Assembly (NCBI GenBank): GCA_021817755.1
Contig: JAKAGC010000017.1
Span: 1 to 15,607 of the forward strand
Direction of reading: 5' to 3'
Origin: Acidobacteriota bacterium
GTDB lineage: Bacteria; Acidobacteriota; Aminicenantia; UBA2199
DNA: 15,607 nt
This document shows, piece by piece, positions 334 through 10,737 of the stretch. The notes under the pieces were generated by a model. The model was not told the DNA's origin and searched no databases. It worked only from the letters and a program-made list of their open reading frames with translations. A program made the position numbers and the translations under genes. Positions within the stretch are counted from its first letter, which is position 1; the number at the start of each line of letters is the position of its first letter.

Positions 334-361
334 TTGTAAAATGTCGTTATTCTGTTATAAT
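334..361 (+). promoter_or_regulatory. Candidate extended -10 promoter for the CHAT gene, possibly leaderless
   Basis: A perfect TATAAT lies at 356-361, preceded by TG one base upstream (TGTTATAAT, extended -10), with TTGTAA at 334-339 as a 4/6 -35 and a 16-nt spacer. The expected start of transcription is at about 368, which is exactly the A of the preferred CHAT start codon. No Shine-Dalgarno sequence is seen before that ATG, which is consistent with a leaderless message. This is prediction from consensus only. Confidence 0.5.
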
Positions 362-367
362 AATATT

Positions 368-3262
368 ATGAGATATCGTTTATTTTTTCCGGGCTTGTTT
401 ATAGTATTATCGTCATTTATATTTATTTTTTTTTCAGGTTGCTCTAACAAAATTCAAACTACCCCTGCCCACATGCCCGACAACCGTGCGTCTGATCAGT
501 TTGCGGTGAGCGCAGAAAAAATGTCTGATGAAGGTCAGTTCAAAACCTCAAATTTTTTTTACCAAAGAGCTATCGAAGGATATGAGAAAACTGATTCCTG
601 GGAGAAAGCTATTCGCTGTTATATCAAATTGGGAGAAAATGCCCAAAAAATGGATGATGTTGCCTCTGCTATGGGAAATTTGAATAAAGCTCTTGATCTC
701 ACAAAAAAGCAATTCGGTACACAGAACCTGGAATTGGCCAAAAGCTATGGACGGCTTGCCTTTAAATGTCTTAAAGATAAGGATTTCACAAAAGCAGAAG
801 AACTCTATCGAAAAGCTCTTGCTATCCAGTTAGAAATACTTGGAAAAGACAGTCCTGAAGTGGCCAAAACATATAACAACATAGCGCTAATTCAATTGAA
901 TGAAGCGAAAATTAATGAAGCTAATACGAATATCCTTAAAGCCTACATGATTAAAGTCAAAAACAGAAAAGATGTTCCAAAAGAGATTGATAAAAAATTT
1001 CGATCTATTGATCTCGACATCAGGAATTTTAAAAAAGGCGAATTCGATCAAGCACGTAATCAATTTAATAAATCCCTTGAAGAATACAATAAACAGTATG
1101 GACAAAATAAACCTCTTTTTATCTCAATATATGAACAAATCGGAATACTTTATGCTCTTGAAGGTAATTATGATAAGGCTTTCGATTATATTCGGAAAGC
1201 CTTTGATACCCGTATTGAAATCTATGGAGATGGAAGTGTTGAATCTGGGACGGGTTATTTAAATATTGGTATTTGTTTGAGATTAAAGGGTGAATTCGAA
1301 GCCGCTTCCAAGTACCTGGATAATGCTCTAAAAATAAAAATTGAACACCGGGGCGAATTTCATCCTGATATCGCCGATATTTATTGTCAAATTGGTAAGT
1401 TATTGTTTCAGCAGGATATGTGGGACCAGGCACTGGAAAATTTTCAAAAAGCGCTGATTTGTTGTGCTCCTCCTTTCAAATCTATGGATACCGCTTTAAA
1501 TCCTGAACTTCGTGATGAGTACCCGCATGAAAAGCTACTTGAAATTCTTTCTGCAAAAGCCGATACGCTGCGTATGTATTATTTCTTTAAACCTGAAAAT
1601 GAGAGATTTTTAAAAAATGCATTTGCTACCTACCGGGTTGCCTCTTATTTAATTGAAAACATGCGGAAAAGTTATAAAGCGGATTATTTTAAATTGTACT
1701 TTGGAGAAAAAAATCATTCTATATATCAATATGCGATTCAAACTGCTTTAATGCTTTACGACCTTACCGAGATTCCTTCATATAAAGAGGATGCTTTCTA
1801 TCTCTCTGAGAAAAGTAAGGCAGGTGTACTGGCTGAAGCGTTATATGAAGCTCATGCAAGAAAATTTGCAGGCATCACAAAAGATCTCCTCGAAGATGAG
1901 CGAAAAATCAGAGAAGATTTGACTTTTTTTGATACATGTCTTGAAATAGAGAAAGAAGTAGAGAAACCTGATCCGACTAAAATTAAAACTCTTGAAAGCA
2001 GTTACTATTCATCCATACTGAAATACCGTGAATTGATTAAACGCATTGAAACCGAGTACCCCCAATATTATAACCTTAAATACCATACACCTGATTTATT
2101 GATTTCTGATATTCAAAAAAATATCAATTCTGATACTGCACTTCTTGAGTATTTCATCGGAGATCATATTCTGCATATTTTCGTAATCACAAACGAAGGG
2201 TTCAATGTTTTTTCCGTAACTGTAGAAGATGATTTTGATGAACTCATATCAAATTTTAATCAATCCATAAAGAAAATTGAAGAAACCCCTTTTATAAATT
2301 TGAGTTCTCAATTATATCAGCTCCTGATCAAACCAGTTTATTCTTCTATCAAGGATAAATCACGTCTTATAATAATCCCGGACGGGCTTCTTTATACAAT
2401 CCCATTTGAAGCTTTATCGGATGTTCAAACCAGTCAACCGACTCTATCTACAATGGAATATATTGTTAGACAATTTGCCATAAATTATCATTATTCAGTT
2501 AATTTATGGATGTATGGCTCGGGAGAATCCCAGCTCAGTTCCAAAATGTCGTTTATTGGTTTTGCTCCTATTTTCGGAAATGAAGATAAACCGGGATACA
2601 TACTTTCTACCCCCGAAGACAAACCGGGGGTTACCCAACGTTCAATGCCTGTTTCTTTAATTCGAGATGAACCCGGATTTTCTTTATCGGAACTTCCTGC
2701 ATCAGAGGAAGAACTTCGCTCTATAATTGAATTATTTAAACTCCAGGGAAAACCTGCGACTGGTTTTTTTTACCGGATGGCTACAAAGGAAAATTTTAAA
2801 ATTATTGAAAAAGAAAATTACAATTTCATCCACATTGCTACTCATAGCATTAAGAAAGAAGAATATCCACCTTTATCCGGTCTTTTATTTTCATCCGGCG
2901 AACAGAAACACGGACAAGATGGGAGTGATATCCTTTTTGCAGGGGAAATATACAATATGAACCTTAATTCCGATCTTGTAGTGCTCAGCAGTTGTGAAAG
3001 TGGTATAGGGAAACTCATCAAGGGAGAAGGAATGATGGCATTAAATCGCGGTTTTTTTTATGCCGGTATTCGAAACATTGTTTTTTCTCTTTGGAAAGTT
3101 GAAGACCGCTCCACCAGCCGTCTAATGATTGCATTTTATAAGAATATCCTCAGCGGTTTTACTTTTCCCAAGGCTCTTCGAAACGCCAAACTTGAACTTC
3201 TCCGCGATCCCTTTACTGCGTTTCCCAAATATTGGAGTGGATTTATCCTGGTTGGACGATAA
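368..3262 (+). CDS. Secreted TPR-CHAT lipoprotein, putative cysteine protease
   Basis: The start at ATG 368 gives 964 residues and opens directly with a lipoprotein signal peptide (MRYR, hydrophobic core, SGC lipobox with Cys25). In-frame ATGs at 293 and 341 would add an unlikely N-terminal tail. Ser at +2 would favour outer-membrane sorting by E. coli rules. Residues about 75-375 hold tetratricopeptide repeats (for example around 121-160, 249-290, 292-333 and 333-375). A helical linker with a GVLAEALYEAHARKF segment follows near 485. From about 575 to the end lies a CHAT domain: the IIIPDGLLYTIPFEAL strand-turn, IHIATHS with catalytic His826 and VVLSSCESG with Cys876, so the dyad is intact. 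CHAT domains are caspase/separase-like peptidases. It is convergent with, and overlaps by 20 bp, the anti-sigma gene, suggesting a signalling role. Protease activity and substrate are inferred. Confidence 0.88.
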   Translation: MRYRLFFPGLFIVLSSFIFIFFSGCSNKIQTTPAHMPDNRASDQFAVSAEKMSDEGQFKTSNFFYQRAIEGYEKTDSWEKAIRCYIKLGENAQKMDDVASAMGNLNKALDLTKKQFGTQNLELAKSYGRLAFKCLKDKDFTKAEELYRKALAIQLEILGKDSPEVAKTYNNIALIQLNEAKINEANTNILKAYMIKVKNRKDVPKEIDKKFRSIDLDIRNFKKGEFDQARNQFNKSLEEYNKQYGQNKPLFISIYEQIGILYALEGNYDKAFDYIRKAFDTRIEIYGDGSVESGTGYLNIGICLRLKGEFEAASKYLDNALKIKIEHRGEFHPDIADIYCQIGKLLFQQDMWDQALENFQKALICCAPPFKSMDTALNPELRDEYPHEKLLEILSAKADTLRMYYFFKPENERFLKNAFATYRVASYLIENMRKSYKADYFKLYFGEKNHSIYQYAIQTALMLYDLTEIPSYKEDAFYLSEKSKAGVLAEALYEAHARKFAGITKDLLEDERKIREDLTFFDTCLEIEKEVEKPDPTKIKTLESSYYSSILKYRELIKRIETEYPQYYNLKYHTPDLLISDIQKNINSDTALLEYFIGDHILHIFVITNEGFNVFSVTVEDDFDELISNFNQSIKKIEETPFINLSSQLYQLLIKPVYSSIKDKSRLIIIPDGLLYTIPFEALSDVQTSQPTLSTMEYIVRQFAINYHYSVNLWMYGSGESQLSSKMSFIGFAPIFGNEDKPGYILSTPEDKPGVTQRSMPVSLIRDEPGFSLSELPASEEELRSIIELFKLQGKPATGFFYRMATKENFKIIEKENYNFIHIATHSIKKEEYPPLSGLLFSSGEQKHGQDGSDILFAGEIYNMNLNSDLVVLSSCESGIGKLIKGEGMMALNRGFFYAGIRNIVFSLWKVEDRSTSRLMIAFYKNILSGFTFPKALRNAKLELLRDPFTAFPKYWSGFILVGR

Positions 3263-4058
3263 AAAATTTTCCTACAAAAACCGCCTCATTTTTGCTAACC
3301 AATTTCCAATAGTAAAGTCCCTTAGGGAGTTCATTGTTGAAATCAAAATAAAATCCTTTGACTGAGAAAGAATAGAGAATTTTATTTTTATTATTTACAA
3401 TTTCGAGAGTGATAGGGGATGTCAATTCCTTCTTCCATGAAAAACGGATGGGGCATTTTACTGTTTCATTATTTAACGGGGAAAGCGCTTCGGGAGCACT
3501 TCCTCTTAACTGACTCCCAATCATATTTTCAAGGTTTGGGTTCACTTTGAAAGAAGCTTGCTTCTCTTCAAGCGATGCTAAATCCTCATGAGACATTTCT
3601 TTTTGAATTGAAGCAGGATCGTTTTCATTATTCGTTTCATTACTTCCATTTATAGACAGATTGGAATTATTCGAAATTCCTTGTTGTTTGGTTTCGTAAT
3701 TTTGCGAATCGGATAATGTACTATTAAATACTTTAGGGTGAGTTGTGATGAAAAAATATGCACTTAGCATCAATGCGAATACCGCAAAGATTGCCGCTAT
3801 TCTCACAGGGTAGAAGAAAATACTCTTTCTTCGGTTTTTTTCTGTGTTAATTACAATATCTTTTTCCAGGTCCGGGTTCCTAAGAATCATAACCACATCG
3901 ATAATTTTATCTTTGCACTCTGTACAGTGTTCAACATGGGTTAGAATTTGTTCCGATACCGTGGAAATCTGTCCGTGGATGATAGCATCTGCTGTTAAAG
4001 CTGCTGCATCATCGCTTATATGTCCGTCTCCCGGGAAATTATCGTCCCCCTTATTCAT
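3243..4058 (-). CDS. Transmembrane zinc-finger anti-sigma factor with extracytoplasmic beta-sandwich domain
   Basis: The start is chosen at 4058 (271 residues) because a perfect AAGGAGGT lies just upstream; an in-frame ATG at 4082 overlapping the sigma stop would add eight residues. The cytoplasmic N-terminus carries H-x3-C-x2-C (His41, Cys45, Cys48, in HVEHCTEC), the ZAS/zf-HC2 signature of anti-sigma factors. A single TM helix spans about 80-104 after a basic stretch. Residues about 110-147 are rich in Asn, Ser and Glu, probably a flexible linker. The C-terminal 80 residues begin SPLNNETV and contain FSWKK and GLYYWKL, resembling Ig/fibronectin-like domains common in FecR-type proteins. It lies 23 bp behind the sigma gene on the same strand, the usual sigma/anti-sigma order. 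The predicted role is to hold the sigma factor at the membrane until an envelope signal releases it. Confidence 0.82.
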   Translation of the reverse strand: MNKGDDNFPGDGHISDDAAALTADAIIHGQISTVSEQILTHVEHCTECKDKIIDVVMILRNPDLEKDIVINTEKNRRKSIFFYPVRIAAIFAVFALMLSAYFFITTHPKVFNSTLSDSQNYETKQQGISNNSNLSINGSNETNNENDPASIQKEMSHEDLASLEEKQASFKVNPNLENMIGSQLRGSAPEALSPLNNETVKCPIRFSWKKELTSPITLEIVNNKNKILYSFSVKGFYFDFNNELPKGLYYWKLVSKNEAVFVGKFFIVQPG

Positions 4059-4062
4059 ATTT

Positions 4063-4070
4063 ACCTCCTT
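4063..4070 (-). promoter_or_regulatory. Strong ribosome binding site that fixes the anti-sigma start
   Basis: Read on the minus strand, AAGGAGGT runs from 4070 to 4063 and is followed by AAAT and then ATG at 4058. This is the most complete Shine-Dalgarno match noted in the window and argues for the internal ATG over the ATG at 4082, which would lie inside the sigma gene's stop codon. It also implies that the anti-sigma is translated efficiently relative to the sigma gene, whose own ribosome site is weaker. Confidence 0.8.
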
Positions 4071-4081
4071 AGTATTGGTCA

Positions 4082-5134
4082 TCAGTTATAACCTCTCTGG
4101 TATTGCTTGGCTTTTAAATCTGAGATTTCATTTTCATTATTTTTTTTATCATAGTAGAGGGTTAAAAGATCCAAAAAATTTTTACTTGTATAAACGTCGC
4201 CCTGGTGGGTATGATTCATATGGGCTGTAATTTCATCCACTTTTAAAGAAACCCACTTCCTTAACGTATCGCTTTTGTTTTCCATACCTTCATGCCTGTT
4301 AAAAACTGTGATTACAGTATCGAAAACATTTTTATCTTTCATATTTTTAAAATCTTTGCTTAACAATTTCATATCATCGGTATTAAATGCTGGGAAACAC
4401 AAAGAAATATCTTTTTCCTTAACAGGAATGCGACATTTCAATTTTAAGCATAATTCCAATCGTGCACGGCTTCTATGATACAATAACAGAATTGTATCGA
4501 GTTTTTGAAATTCACTATCAATGGCAACACGAGTTAGCATGTTTTCATCCTTATTATCATATATATCAAAGGATTCATTCATGGGAAGCACATTACCACC
4601 AGTGAGAAGCCGTACATTTCTCTCACGAATAATATCCATATAAATATTACGGACTGTTACCATCAGATAGGATGTAAAAAAAGATTTTTTTACCTCTGTT
4701 TCATTGCTATACTCAAAATCAAAACGATCGCGAATCCTGTTGATTTTATCCGATATCAAGCGGGTCATTACTTCCTGGAAGATATCTTCCCAATCTTCTT
4801 TTCCTCGGCGTGAGCACGTGTGTTTGTACTTAATAAATTTTTTAATATAAGAACGATATATAAGTACGACTGTATGTGGATAAAATTTTAGGATATATTT
4901 AAAACTCAGGACTTCTTTAGCCAGTTTTACGATTTCTGTTTCATCATCTTTTACCGTATCTTTCCATTCAGGATGCTTTATTTTTATTAATTCTATGAAG
5001 AAGTCGCTTAATATTATTGTTAAGTCGGGGAAATATTTTCCCGGGTAATCTTCTTCTGTGTATAATTCGTGTCGTATTACATTGGAAACTATCTGCCGTG
5101 TCCGATCGATATTTAATCTGCTTATGTTTTTCAT
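4082..5134 (-). CDS. Atypical, enlarged sigma-70-family (ECF-like) sigma factor
   Basis: The protein has 350 residues, well above the roughly 180-200 of an ordinary ECF factor. Residues about 80-172 read as sigma region 2: the helix VVLIYRSYIKKFIKYK, then WEDIFQEVMTRLI, FFTSYLMVTVRN and MDIIRER, matching the core-binding and -10-recognition segment. About 75 residues precede it with no motif I recognise. Beyond residue 205 a canonical region 4 helix-turn-helix is not obvious; the stretch 209-240 (KLDTILLLYHRSRARLELCLKLKCRIPVKEKDISLCF region) may replace or extend it, and a further 100 residues follow. The neighbouring zinc-finger anti-sigma supports a sigma function. Translation starts at ATG 5134 after a weak AGGTTA. 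The likely role is to direct RNA polymerase to a stress or signal regulon, possibly including its own operon and the CHAT gene. Confidence 0.78.
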   Translation of the reverse strand: MKNISRLNIDRTRQIVSNVIRHELYTEEDYPGKYFPDLTIILSDFFIELIKIKHPEWKDTVKDDETEIVKLAKEVLSFKYILKFYPHTVVLIYRSYIKKFIKYKHTCSRRGKEDWEDIFQEVMTRLISDKINRIRDRFDFEYSNETEVKKSFFTSYLMVTVRNIYMDIIRERNVRLLTGGNVLPMNESFDIYDNKDENMLTRVAIDSEFQKLDTILLLYHRSRARLELCLKLKCRIPVKEKDISLCFPAFNTDDMKLLSKDFKNMKDKNVFDTVITVFNRHEGMENKSDTLRKWVSLKVDEITAHMNHTHQGDVYTSKNFLDLLTLYYDKKNNENEISDLKAKQYQRGYN

Positions 5135-5217: not shown

Positions 5218-5246
5218 TTTATAACATAAATCCAAGAAATTTGCAA
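5218..5246 (-). promoter_or_regulatory. Candidate promoter for the sigma/anti-sigma operon
   Basis: On the minus strand, TTGCAA (5246-5241) is followed after 17 nt by TATAAA (5223-5218), with TG one base upstream of the hexamer (TGTTATAAA), an extended -10 form. Transcription would begin near 5211 and leave a leader of about 77 nt before ATG 5134. It resembles the CHAT promoter candidate (TTGTAA, TGTTATAAT). Prediction from consensus only. Confidence 0.4.
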
Positions 5247-6725: not shown

Positions 6726-7682
6726 ATGAATAAGCAATTAATCATTGTACTTGGTATATGTATATTGGGCTTACTTCCTCTATTCTCCGGAGATAATCCC
6801 ATGAACACCTCAAAACTAACTAACAATGAAAAAAGCGATAAAGATATACTTCTGGAAACCGACCGACAGATTTCAACAATTGCCCGTGAACAGGGATTTT
6901 TAAAGGCCATCATTCCTTTCCTGGATGAGAACGCGATCATTTTTCCAACCAACGGATATCCCCTTTACGGAAAAGACTTTATTGTAAAGAGTAGTGAAAA
7001 AGTTGAATTTTTAGGTCGTGAAAGTATCCTCACATGGGCTCCTGTTGCTGCCGAAATATCTACTACATCCGATCTTGGTTATACATATGGAACTTTTGAA
7101 CATCAAACTACTAACACATCATCCACTCCCAAAACAGAAACCGCATATTACCTTTTTATCTGGAAAAAAAATAACACTCAGAAATGGAAAATAGTAGTCA
7201 GTCAGGGTTTACTTTTCATTTCCCAACTTGGTGACAAACCAGCACCAAATTTAATCGATAAATCCAAAATCGATTCTCTTAATAAAGAAATAGTGGAAAC
7301 AGAACTCGCTTTTTCAAATTATTCTGTAACTCACAATAGACCCCAAGCGTTTTATAATTACATCGCCCCTAATGGAGTCGCAATCGGGGGTAATACGCCT
7401 CGTACAAAAGAAACCTATGCGGAACTTATTGAAAAAGCCAAATTAAACCCGGACCCCAATGCCCCTAAGACTACCCTTGAATGGAAGCCCATTTACTCCT
7501 TTGTCTCCTCTTCGGGGGAGCTCGCATATGATTATGGACCATGGCGATTCACTCAAACGGATAAGTCCGGAAATTCCCAGGTATTTTATGGTTACTTCAT
7601 AACTGTCTGGCAAAAGCAAGCAGATAAAACCTGGAAATTTATCCGAGATTGTGGAAATGAATGTCCTAATCCTGTTTATTAG
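6726..7682 (+). CDS. Secreted protein with two tandem NTF2/DUF4440-like domains
   Basis: 318 residues starting at ATG 6726, eight bases after GGAGG (6713-6717). Residues 1-22 are a signal peptide (MNKQ, hydrophobic core ending LLPLFSG) without a lipobox. Two related halves follow: about 38-163, with a helix ILLETDRQISTIAREQG, FLDENAIIFPTNG, LGYTYGTFE and a final TQKWKIVVSQG; and about 186-310, with KEIVETELAFSNYS, YIAPNGVAIGG, LAYDYGPWRF and a final KTWKFIRDCGNE. This helix, acidic face and WK-strand pattern is that of SnoaL/DUF4440 cone-shaped domains, which may bind or convert small ligands, but many have no known activity. A duplication within one exported protein is likely. The function is unknown. 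Confidence 0.75.
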   Translation: MNKQLIIVLGICILGLLPLFSGDNPMNTSKLTNNEKSDKDILLETDRQISTIAREQGFLKAIIPFLDENAIIFPTNGYPLYGKDFIVKSSEKVEFLGRESILTWAPVAAEISTTSDLGYTYGTFEHQTTNTSSTPKTETAYYLFIWKKNNTQKWKIVVSQGLLFISQLGDKPAPNLIDKSKIDSLNKEIVETELAFSNYSVTHNRPQAFYNYIAPNGVAIGGNTPRTKETYAELIEKAKLNPDPNAPKTTLEWKPIYSFVSSSGELAYDYGPWRFTQTDKSGNSQVFYGYFITVWQKQADKTWKFIRDCGNECPNPVY

Positions 7683-8287: not shown

Positions 8288-9013
8288 ATGAAAAGACAAG
8301 AAGTAGATAAAACTGTAATTTTGGATCGAATAAGTCAAATGGTTAAACCTCTTAATCCGCCTGTGGATGCTTTTGAAAATAGTGCAAAACGTACCCCTTT
8401 CAAAACGCTCATTTCTGTACTTCTTAGTTCTCGCACCAAAGATCCTGTTACTCATAAAGCCTCGGATAATCTTTTTTCTATCGCCAGTACCCCCAATGAA
8501 ATGGTCCTTCTTGATGAAGATAGGATTGCCCAGGCTATCTTCCCCGTTGGATTTTATAGACAGAAAGCTAAAAATATTAAAACTATTGCCCGGATACTTA
8601 CTCAATCTTATAATAATAATATACCCTCAACTTTTGATGAACTCACAGCGCTCCCGGGAGTTGGGAGGAAAACCGCCAATCTCGTATTGTCTTTGGCATT
8701 CAATCAACCTTCTATTGCAGTTGATATTCATGTTTTTCGTATTTCTCAAAGACTGGGCTGGGCGAAAGGCAATAAACCCGAAGAGATCGAAGAACAACTA
8801 AAACAATCCTTTGCTCCTCAATTTTGGAACCGGATAAACCAGGTACTTGTTGGTTTCGGTCAAACTATTTGCAAACCCGTAAATCCATTGTGTAGCCATT
8901 GTGAAATTACTGAGCATTGCTTATACTTTAATAATTTAGAAAAATCCGCAAAGAATAACGTTTCTGGTTTCACGAAAAAGAAGATTATTAAAGGAACTAA
9001 TCAAAATGATTGA
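8288..9013 (+). CDS. nth: Endonuclease III, DNA glycosylase/AP lyase
   Basis: 241 residues. The helix-hairpin-helix LPGVGRKTANLVLSLAF (122-138) carries the catalytic Lys128, and VDIHVFRI holds the catalytic Asp146. The 4Fe-4S loop C-x6-C-x2-C-x5-C is exact (Cys195, 202, 205, 211). It removes oxidised pyrimidines from DNA and nicks the abasic site during base-excision repair. The conserved LLSAQTTD region reads LLSSRTKD (45-52), a variant found in some non-proteobacterial and archaeal homologues. About 25 basic residues follow the cluster. The gene starts three bases after the Nudix stop and its last eight bases overlap the ABC ATPase start (ATGATTGA), so coupled translation is likely although the functions differ. 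Confidence 0.95.
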   Translation: MKRQEVDKTVILDRISQMVKPLNPPVDAFENSAKRTPFKTLISVLLSSRTKDPVTHKASDNLFSIASTPNEMVLLDEDRIAQAIFPVGFYRQKAKNIKTIARILTQSYNNNIPSTFDELTALPGVGRKTANLVLSLAFNQPSIAVDIHVFRISQRLGWAKGNKPEEIEEQLKQSFAPQFWNRINQVLVGFGQTICKPVNPLCSHCEITEHCLYFNNLEKSAKNNVSGFTKKKIIKGTNQND

Positions 9014-9761
9014 AATCCGAGATTTATGTTATACCCGGGATAAACGTTATATACTTAAGAATATTGATTTAAAAATACAACCCGGGGATTCATGGATGAT
9101 TATTGGTCCCAATGGAGCGGGAAAAACGACCCTCCTCAGAATCATGTGTGGATTATTAAAAGATTACAGCGGATCTGTTCGTATTGATGGCAAAGAAGCA
9201 CGAAACACTACACCGAAAGAAATTGCACAATCGCTCTCTTATCAACCACAATTCGATGAATTCTCTCTTCCCTTAAAGGTTTTGGATATCTTAATGGCAG
9301 GTCGTTATCCCTATAAATCTTTTTTTAAAGACTATTCCGAAAAAGATATCCAGGCAGTCGATCAAATCATCCGGATGATGAATCTGGAACCCCTCGTAAA
9401 CCGTGATATAAATACGCTTAGTGGTGGAGAGCGTAAAAAGGTCACCCTTGCTTCCGCTTTTATTCAGGATGTCCCCTTAATACTCTTCGATGAACCCTTT
9501 ACTTTTCTTGATCCCGCAGTTATTTCGGGTTTAAAAAATATCATGAATAGTATGAATCGCATTGGGAAAACCCTTGTTGTGGTTTCTCATGATTTTGAAA
9601 TTCTGTTTCCTGCCTCAACCCATATACTTGCTTTAAAAAATGGACAAGTCGTTTATAATGGTCCTCGCAATTTTGACAAAGAAATGCTCCGGCAAACATA
9701 CGGAACACATTTTGAACGGATTTTTCATAATGGAAAAGAGATTATTTTTATCGATGAATAA
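9006..9761 (+). CDS. ABC transporter ATPase of the FecE/BtuD type (iron-siderophore or cobalamin family)
   Basis: 251 residues with all nucleotide-binding elements in order: Walker A GPNGAGKTT (34-42), Q-loop Gln80, signature LSGGERKKV (138-146), Walker B VPLILFDEP (156-164) with catalytic Glu163, and switch His195 in VVVSHD. The LMAGRYPYKSFF segment after the Q-loop is typical of the FecE/FhuC/BtuD subfamily of metal-chelate and vitamin importers. It overlaps nth by eight bases and the permease by eight bases (ATG 9754 inside GATGAATAA), so it forms a unit with the permease. No substrate-binding protein gene is in the window, so the ligand cannot be named. Confidence 0.92.
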   Translation: MIEIRDLCYTRDKRYILKNIDLKIQPGDSWMIIGPNGAGKTTLLRIMCGLLKDYSGSVRIDGKEARNTTPKEIAQSLSYQPQFDEFSLPLKVLDILMAGRYPYKSFFKDYSEKDIQAVDQIIRMMNLEPLVNRDINTLSGGERKKVTLASAFIQDVPLILFDEPFTFLDPAVISGLKNIMNSMNRIGKTLVVVSHDFEILFPASTHILALKNGQVVYNGPRNFDKEMLRQTYGTHFERIFHNGKEIIFIDE

Positions 9762-10737
9762 AAAATATACACTTTTAATCATAGTAGGAATAGTTATACT
9801 TATCGTAGTTCCCTTTATTGGGAATATAAGAATTAATTTAAATTCATTATTCCGGCATACTTCAGACCCTCATAATTTCATTTTTTGGCAGTTAAGGCTT
9901 CCACGCACATTGCTTGCATTTATTGTCGGTTCTACTCTCGCCGTGGCTGGGTTGATCTTCCAGAACTTATTTAAAAATAGCCTTGCTACCCCTTATACTC
10001 TTGGTGTCTCATCCGGAGCTGCTGCCGGTACTGTTCTTGCAATTAAATTAAATCTTGCGTTACCCTTTCTCGGGCTTGGAGGGACATATGTTTACGGATT
10101 TATTGGGGCCCTTGCCACTATTGCTGTTATACTCGCCATTACGCGGATCGTGAAAAGTTCCTCCATTTACACCCTCCTTATGTCCGGTGTTGCTCTTAAT
10201 TTCTTTTTCTCATCCTTAATCCTTCTTGTTCAATACCTTCTTGATTTTACAGAAACCGTATCCGTTCTTCGCTGGTTAATGGGAGGCTTAACCGTTACAG
10301 GTTATTCCGAAATACTTTTTCTTGTTCCACTTTATATTTTTTTTATTGTTACAACCTTTTTATTAAGACATGAACTGATGCTTATTTCCGGTGGTGATCA
10401 ATTCGCCCAGTCAAAGGGCATCGATGTTAAAAAACTGCGAAACGGTTTATTTATTCTTGTCAGTCTTATAGTCGGTATCGTTGTATCCATTACCGGTCCT
10501 ATTGCTTTTATCGGAATGATTGTTCCGCATATTTCACGACTCGTATTCAAAGAAGATTTCAAAGCTGTTACATTTATGACCGTATTAATGGGTGGGCTTC
10601 TTCTTGTCTTAACTGATTTCCTTTCTCGAGTTCTCATTCCTCCCGTTGAAATCCCTGTAGGGATCATTACTTCTTTTATGGGGGCTCCTTTTTTCCTTTT
10701 TATCCTCATATCGAAATTAAAGGAGAATCATGCATGA
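9754..10737 (+). CDS. FecCD/BtuC-type ABC transporter permease
   Basis: The start is set at ATG 9754, giving 327 residues, the usual FecCD length. A longer open frame reaches back to 9640 but would encode a non-hydrophobic tail out of frame with the ATPase it overlaps. The protein is highly hydrophobic with the family hallmarks RLPRTLLAFIVGSTLAVAG, IFQNLFKNSLATPYTLGVSS and GAAAGTVLAI near the N-terminus, and GPIAFIGMIVPHISRL in the C-terminal half, the loop that contacts the ATPase. About nine to ten TM helices are expected, working as a homodimer. It pairs with the preceding ATPase for uptake of an iron chelate, haem or cobalamin-type ligand across the inner membrane. Its stop overlaps the next gene's start by four bases. 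Confidence 0.92.
   Translation: MNKKYTLLIIVGIVILIVVPFIGNIRINLNSLFRHTSDPHNFIFWQLRLPRTLLAFIVGSTLAVAGLIFQNLFKNSLATPYTLGVSSGAAAGTVLAIKLNLALPFLGLGGTYVYGFIGALATIAVILAITRIVKSSSIYTLLMSGVALNFFFSSLILLVQYLLDFTETVSVLRWLMGGLTVTGYSEILFLVPLYIFFIVTTFLLRHELMLISGGDQFAQSKGIDVKKLRNGLFILVSLIVGIVVSITGPIAFIGMIVPHISRLVFKEDFKAVTFMTVLMGGLLLVLTDFLSRVLIPPVEIPVGIITSFMGAPFFLFILISKLKENHA
10719..10725 (+). promoter_or_regulatory. Ribosome binding site for the two-TM protein
   Basis: AAAGGAG at 10719-10725 stands eight bases before ATG 10734. A second ATG at 10730 is in another frame and too close. The site is inside the permease coding region, so the downstream gene has its own initiation signal despite the four-base overlap. 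Confidence 0.65.

Follow-up and report, generated by a model that had tools for sequence, protein, structure and literature searches.

An exported TPR-CHAT protein linked to a membrane anti-sigma factor in several bacterial phyla: a candidate site-1 protease for a proposed envelope-to-nucleoid switch

Introduction

PrsW is the site-1 protease of the anti-sigma factor RsiW. Site-1 proteolysis of membrane anti-sigma factors is described for RsiW and for RseA with DegS (PMC10028731), and the same source describes a Csx29-Csx30-CASP-sigma (RpoE) pathway of type III-E CRISPR systems in which proteolysis by a TPR-CHAT protein lifts the inhibition of a sigma factor. Here we analyse a stretch of 15,607 nt (hereafter the window; assembly GCA_021817755.1, contig JAKAGC010000017.1) from a bacterium of the phylum Acidobacteriota, where the gene for an exported TPR-CHAT protein is linked to the genes of a single-span membrane anti-sigma factor and an atypical sigma factor, a linkage that recurs in several phyla; the CHAT protein, a predicted peptidase, probably cuts the ectodomain of the anti-sigma factor and so starts release of the sigma factor.

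This cassette resembles Craspase in joining a TPR-CHAT protease with an inhibitor of an extracytoplasmic function (ECF)-type sigma factor, the cutting being in our case proposed, but it differs in that the CHAT protein is exported and the inhibitor is a single-span membrane protein of another architecture. The window's anti-sigma factor also has a conserved Arg, whereas the Csx30 cut site is, in the part of the source available, given as not conserved (PMC11106740). Neither Cas7-11 nor a CRISPR array, which together mark Craspase membership, was found within the window: the repeat search returned a single two-copy family, 74% alike, and a PADLOC scan of 13 of the window's 15 proteins, the cas search being confined to the window, gave no cas match. 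Like RseA-DegS and RsiW-PrsW, the cassette pairs a membrane anti-sigma factor that has an ectodomain with an envelope protease, here proposed to make the site-1 cut, but unlike DegS and PrsW this protease belongs to clan CD, is fused to TPRs and has its gene, as a rule, next to that of the anti-sigma factor. In the type III CRISPR system CalpL-CalpT-CalpS a protease likewise reportedly releases a sigma factor held by an anti-sigma protein; that system is said to be CRISPR-linked and cytoplasmic, with a protease of a different type from CHAT, whereas the window's CHAT would act in the envelope from a non-CRISPR locus.

The ECF54 sigma group has CHAT proteins in its gene context, and proteolytic control without an anti-sigma factor was proposed for it (PMC8999054); nearness of a CHAT gene to an ECF sigma gene is common to both cases, whereas in the present cassette the two have a conserved membrane anti-sigma factor between them. 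A bacterial gasdermin with a TPR-CHAT activator (PMC9729208) similarly combines TPR-CHAT with a linked candidate substrate, but the partner here is an anti-sigma factor. In the open PubMed Central literature, the main ECF classification paper being outside its coverage, we found control of sigma factors by CHAT proteins for Csx29-Csx30 (PMC10028731 and the Craspase papers) and ECF54 (PMC8999054), as far as the available portions of these sources extend, and no description of a membrane sigma/anti-sigma/CHAT cassette or of a clan CD class of site-1 proteases for membrane anti-sigma factors.

Results

The three genes that a sequence-only reading of the window had described were confirmed. The gene for the TPR-CHAT lipoprotein that we propose as site-1 protease (964 aa; 368..3262, forward strand, ATG at 368 and stop ending at 3262) lies tail-to-tail with that of the anti-sigma factor, which has a zinc-motif domain, one transmembrane helix and a periplasmic ectodomain (279 aa; 3243..4082, reverse strand), the 3' ends overlapping by 20 nt; the anti-sigma gene in turn overlaps by 1 nt the gene for an atypical ECF-like sigma factor (350 aa; 4082..5134, reverse strand). 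The source genome, G000, comprises 4.74 Mb in 811 contigs and is 79.6% complete. By its homologs the window belongs with Candidatus Aminicenantes, to which locus L008 of the same-genus genome G416 is also assigned. The sequence-only reading had named usual separation of the CHAT gene from the sigma pair in related genomes as evidence that would speak against it; we found instead that both CHAT and anti-sigma genes occur in 12 of 34 genomes of the order and that they adjoin in 34 of 51 loci, counts that place the neighbourhood beyond chance.

For the order, both the anti-sigma alignment and the CHAT protein served as queries against 34 genomes. A CHAT ortholog and a strong anti-sigma match (E-value below 1e-18) were found in the same 12 genomes and neither in the other 22 (Fisher's exact test about 2e-9, worked by hand and ignoring kinship), with cut-offs set in score gaps after the scores had been seen: the best CHAT E-value per genome was 1.1e-125 or lower in the 12, and the best among the other 22 was 1.3e-32. 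Weak anti-sigma matches with E-values of 1e-4 to 1e-7 (G049, G425 and G426, and further ones of G416 and G431) were not counted. Within genera the two genes are distributed patchily, kinship being uncorrected here too; among the 16 genomes of genus g2 the pair occurs in G424 only and the same-genus G417 has neither gene, and therefore CHAT and anti-sigma appear to have been gained or lost together. The two genes adjoin in eight order genomes (G000, G416, G412, G415, G411, G424, G431 and G144), G416, the source of the L008 contig, being of the same genus as the window genome. In a 396-genome sample of the window's phylum, strong anti-sigma matches occurred only in the window's family.

Contig ends touch the other four order genomes that have both genes. 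In G413 both genes lie near contig ends: a YhgA-like transposase gene (L009, 10961-11932) adjoins the anti-sigma gene and the CHAT ortholog ends another contig, so that a transposase insertion possibly split this cassette. The CHAT genes of G384 and G418 are cut by contig ends, in G414 the anti-sigma match covers no more than 59 residues, where a contig ends, and in G418 and G414 the two genes are apart as far as the contigs reach. Tail-to-tail with the G414 CHAT ortholog is a gene for a 715-aa TPR protein with a hydrophobic N-terminus (L236, 3854-5998). It was considered as a PrsW-like protease and rejected, as its Pfam matches are to TPRs and its N-terminal part has only weak metallopeptidase matches.

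A scan of genome contigs with an anti-sigma alignment profile gave 52 loci, of which one (L058) has no anti-sigma open reading frame (ORF), leaving 51; near-identical pairs (L026/L042 and L016/L018) and same-genome copies (L020/L034) were kept in all counts. A CHAT gene lies within 1500 nt of the anti-sigma gene in 34 of the 51, from several phyla, tail-to-tail in 24 and on the same strand in 10, with a gap of 153 nt or less in 29 of the 34. Among the other 17, four contigs are cut just after the anti-sigma gene (L041, L045, L048 and L059), the next ORF of L045 being a TPR protein that runs off the contig, and in L040 the CHAT gene is more than 5 kb away. In four of the 10 same-strand loci (L021, L028, L038 and L055) the anti-sigma and CHAT ORFs share a frame with a single stop between them, one third being expected.

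A sample of 395 genomes of Bacteroidota, the phylum of G014, gave matches in 10, with seven strong loci (E-value below 1e-30) in six genomes; G484, G495 and G014 were already rows of the query alignment. CHAT is adjacent in six of the seven, and in the seventh (L057, from the Bacteroidales genome G014) its place is taken by caspases. At L057 (10345-14629) and L116, two C14 caspase-domain proteins with signal-like N-termini, one of the L057 pair fused to WD40 repeats and the other with a sub-threshold DUF4384 match, are encoded directly after the anti-sigma gene; C14 caspases belong to the same protease clan as CHAT. The single weaker Bacteroidota match that was examined (G014:C161) has no protease beside the anti-sigma-like gene. 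Both families are expanded in the Bacteroidia genome G015 (loci L092-L108; 21 anti-sigma-like and 45 CHAT matches), where five of 17 stretches have a CHAT gene or a piece of one within about 1.2 kb (L093, L095, L100, L101 and L104).

A tree was built from the 34 linked CHAT domains and 46 others. Of the linked ones, 30 fell into one clade (support 0.952) and L047, L054, L055 and L056 outside it; the clade also holds seven of the others. These seven come from G413 (one gene twice), G010, G013, G005 (two) and G008, all genomes with an anti-sigma gene, and one of the two G005 members is in fact linked, in L114. As 31 of the 46 other domains were drawn from genomes with the anti-sigma gene and 15 from order genomes without a strong match, the origin of all seven among the 31, and of none among the 15, is partly by construction. 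Anti-sigma and CHAT trees were correlated (r = 0.68, n = 34, against a maximum of 0.46 in 2000 permutations, species history being uncorrected).

The CHAT peptidase domain of the window protein covers residues 646-964 (2303..3259, forward strand) and is a strong match to PF12770 (5.3e-56; 190.6 bits against a curated cut-off of 24). It has the His-Cys dyad of this family: His826 (codon 2843..2845) and Cys876 (codon 2993..2995), numbered as in the sequence-only reading, are each kept in 40 of 40 aligned CHATs, mostly from anti-sigma loci and including one locus twice (L008 and L175) and some near-identical pairs. A profile of 34 domains of this kind matched solved structures, namely 8rot (1.3e-7), the Craspase TPR-CHAT chains (about 1e-4) and separase (0.11). 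N-terminal to the domain, Pfam matches mark a TPR array (residues about 65-364; 560..1459), the proposed sensor, which was kinesin-light-chain-like in a comparison with the PDB. The hydrophobic N-terminus (residues 1-24; 368..439) ends in a lipobox-like FSGC, within FFSGC, and reads as a lipoprotein-type signal, in keeping with the export that had been claimed; a strongly hydrophobic N-terminal segment is present, judged by a coarse hydropathy threshold, in 26 of 32 CHATs of anti-sigma loci. Beside the anti-sigma genes of L055 (10298-11512) and L056 (10441-11691) the CHAT ORFs are short (405-417 aa), that of L055 having a Pfam match to CHAT only and no TPR, and the CHAT of L051 is split in two pieces.

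The anti-sigma protein had no Pfam match at E-values up to 1 and two NCBIfam matches (0.095 and 0.12), neither from an anti-sigma family, so that a profile match to known anti-sigma families in Pfam or NCBIfam is lacking. Zinc-binding anti-sigma (ZAS) factors are defined by an HxxxCxxC motif N-terminal to one transmembrane helix and a gene beside a sigma gene, and the window protein has all three features. Its zinc-type motif, H21...H49xxxC53xxC56 (3915..4022; this and the following features are on the reverse strand), has H21, C53 and C56 invariant and H49 kept in at least 90% of an 81-row alignment (A4), in which R193, F214, N231, G255, Y257, Y258, W259 and K260 are also invariant. The predicted structure (mean predicted local distance difference test score (pLDDT) 81, predicted template modelling score (pTM) 0.47) has zinc-domain helices at residues 24-74, a transmembrane helix at 91-114 (3741..3812), a variable linker at 115-165 (3588..3740; pLDDT mostly about 45-57) that would be periplasmic and disordered, two further helices (166-176 and 182-185), the R193 loop and a beta-sandwich at 199-275 (3258..3488) with GLYYWK and GKF signatures; together with the sequence it supports the single-span topology that had been claimed. 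A Foldseek search with this model gave generic beta-sandwiches only, the best at 2.4e-3 and none at E-values up to 0.001. Among the 52 anti-sigma ORFs, HxxxCxxC is present in 44, a segment like a transmembrane helix in 50 and the order motif, helix, ectodomain in 42, some of the misses being truncated ORFs.

The ectodomain has a conserved motif, FKVNPNLENMIGSQLRG (residues 178-194; 3501..3551), which contains Arg193 (codon 3504-3506). All 81 rows of A4 have Arg at position 193; the next residue is Ser in 60, Gly in 11, Asn in 5, Asp in 4 and Ala in one. Because A4 omitted many of the most distant loci, we counted again over a wider set and found Arg in 51 of 52 rows, L053 having Ile with an Arg one place earlier; 16 further paralogs of G015 have Arg, or Lys in two (L101 and L105), L108 being poorly aligned. 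In predicted structures Arg193 sits in a lower-confidence loop between ordered parts, the segment that precedes it being predicted with high confidence. The anti-sigma ectodomain and the CHAT protein of L028 (Saprospiraceae), read through as one chain, gave a model (mean pLDDT 84.5, pTM 0.77) with pLDDT of 95 at residues 11-20, 73 in the Arg loop (21-30) and mostly above 90 in the sandwich, a model that is silent on docking. Two alignments of such fusions (A3 and A5) were discarded, as they placed CHAT N-termini on the anti-sigma part, and A6 was used instead.

This Arg suggests, from the substrate side only, that Arg is the P1 residue. In separase of C. thermophilum, P1 Arg is bound by Asp2151 (PMC10317155, PMC9729208), and this Asp corresponds to Lys670 of the Craspase TPR-CHAT (PMC9729208), which in that chain stands eight residues after its Trp and aligns with Ser917 of the window's CHAT; therefore, Arg specificity is not predicted by homology. 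Asp913 (in LWKVEDR; Asp in 34 of 35) was tried as a reader of P1 Arg and rejected, Ser917 being the separase-equivalent position. Other clan CD families are described as recognising P1 Arg through other acids (PMC4357240).

The sigma protein has a weak region 2 (PF04542, 13.1 bits against a cut-off of 24; TIGR02937 (sigma70-ECF, NCBIfam), 6.5e-5 and 22.6 bits against 42.9); of 21 aligned members, 16 match PF04542 at an E-value of 0.1 or less. The window protein has no region 4 match, so that the regions 2 and 4 above cut-off that mark an ECF factor are not found in it. The sigma gene of L041 has a clear region 4 match. In 43 of 51 loci the anti-sigma gene is immediately preceded by a sigma gene, window-like in 29 and of a second ECF type in 14, and four of the eight loci without one are contig-cut.

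An extended -10 type element, TATGTTATAAA (TRTGNTATAAA; 5218..5228, reverse strand), stands 84 nt before the sigma start, the one match in the window against 0.13 expected, and L008, L010, L012, L013 and L177 likewise have such an element shortly before the sigma start. Directly before the CHAT start codon is a sigma-70-like element, TTGTAA-16-TATAAT (334..361, forward strand), which is supported by its position alone, since the one found in the window against 1.7 expected is not above chance; similar -10 elements were seen by eye before several related CHAT genes. Counts of a shared ECF-like promoter dyad were at the level of shuffled sequence, with none exceeding the shuffles. The -10 elements before the sigma and CHAT genes are of housekeeping type and fit, weakly, a switch that is made constitutively and kept poised, more than one that regulates itself.

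On the opposite strand upstream of the sigma gene, five Saprospiraceae-type loci have a lipoprotein-like gene of about 230-250 aa (L021, 8327-9004; L027, 2477-3187; L031, 8256-9002; L042, 8379-9071; L045, 6206-6886), within 180 nt of the sigma gene in four and at about 800 nt in L027; this divergent gene is a possible target of the sigma factor. Related short ORFs are found just upstream of the sigma gene in L017 (182-538), L020 (2564-3109), L025 (8644-9117) and L035 (5724-6173). Elsewhere in the window, near the sigma gene, is a gene for a protein that has two DUF4440 stretches and an N-terminus like a signal sequence (6726-7682), and genes for an ABC ATPase and a FecCD-type permease (9006-10737) are seemingly unconnected with the cassette.

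Discussion

The CHAT gene is genetically linked with the anti-sigma gene. Based on the co-occurrence and adjacency of the two genes, the intact dyad, the grouping of linked CHATs in one clade, the tree correlation, the conserved Arg193 in its loop and the C14 caspases in the place of CHAT at L057, we favour as probable an envelope-to-nucleoid switch in which the exported CHAT protein cuts the anti-sigma ectodomain and thereby starts sigma release. Much of this had been proposed by the sequence-only reading, of which linkage, export and topology are borne out; the cleavage, together with its site, the trigger, the binding and release of the sigma factor and the regulon, we infer. The cytoplasmic zinc-motif domain would hold the sigma factor, and the transmembrane helix and disordered linker would carry the short conserved segment and the beta-sandwich outside. 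An envelope signal would trigger the exported CHAT protein through its TPRs, and it would cut the ectodomain, most likely in the Arg193 loop that connects the linker-side segment to the beta-sandwich. The stump left in the membrane would then be degraded by general intramembrane and cytoplasmic proteases, which would free the sigma factor.

Several observations weigh against this proposal. Twelve of the 51 loci have no nearby CHAT gene, L057 with its caspases among them (in three of the 12 the contig continues for less than 1.8 kb); 12 of the 17 G015 stretches have none within about 1.2 kb (one ends at the gene); G013 has eight anti-sigma matches and CHAT was seen adjacent in one place (L111, the same as L054); and adjacency was not seen in four of the 12 order genomes with both genes (G413, G414, G418 and G384). 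The cassette includes no site-2 protease, and the binding of the sigma factor by the anti-sigma protein is itself inferred from its motif and gene order. The separase-type Asp is absent from the window's CHAT, the aligned Ser917 not being an acid; Arg193 may be a structural or docking residue; and, as the Csx30 cut site is unconserved, a conserved Arg is not what that precedent leads one to expect.

Many sigma factors adjoin their targets, and the CHAT protein could accordingly be an output: a protease of the envelope that belongs to the sigma regulon and has another substrate, the anti-sigma ectodomain sensing the signal itself; its folded beta-sandwich could bind a ligand, and in same-strand loci the CHAT and sigma genes are in one likely operon. 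We consider this unlikely, though it is the alternative to be taken most seriously: in tail-to-tail loci CHAT is outside the sigma operon, the sigma and CHAT genes of the window, as those of several relatives, have the housekeeping-type -10 elements rather than a shared ECF-like dyad, and a CHAT ortholog is kept even in genomes where it is apart from the anti-sigma gene. The caspases that stand in for CHAT at L057 fit a protease that acts on the conserved partner. It is rather improbable that CHAT binds the ectodomain and regulates without cutting, as a co-sensor or clamp with the Arg segment as its docking site. A conserved segment and correlated trees suit binding no less than cleavage, the stretch preceding the Arg is confidently predicted and the Asp that reads P1 Arg in separase is missing, but a pure scaffold would not need the His and Cys that all 40 aligned CHATs keep. 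That the genes are chance neighbours, or are co-inherited without a functional tie, seems to us very improbable; CHAT genes are numerous, with seven matches in the window genome and the 45 of G015, but co-occurrence in 12 of 12 against none of 22 genomes, and adjacency in two orientations and several phyla, argue against it.

To our knowledge few CHAT proteins outside CRISPR and gasdermin loci have a candidate substrate. With cleavage of the anti-sigma ectodomain as the favoured reading, a group of exported CHATs gains one that is specific, conserved and testable, and an anti-sigma family without a Pfam match gains a candidate activating protease. More broadly, we put forward tentatively, as a somewhat less secure proposal than the switch itself, that membrane anti-sigma factors of several phyla have a class of site-1 proteases drawn from clan CD (CHAT, or C14 caspases in its stead), with an Arg-containing cleavage loop in the ectodomain and a TPR or WD40 envelope sensor, and that this wider caspase-to-transcription logic has a cytoplasmic relative in the Csx29-Csx30-sigma module of CRISPR. 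If the favoured reading is true, sigma release would be triggered by caspase-like proteases as well as by DegS and PrsW, and the CRISPR Csx29 pathway could be regarded as one case of a wider logic. Based on the fact that the exported CHAT is inherited together with a membrane anti-sigma factor, bacteria of several phyla may convert outside signals into gene expression by way of exported caspase-like proteases.

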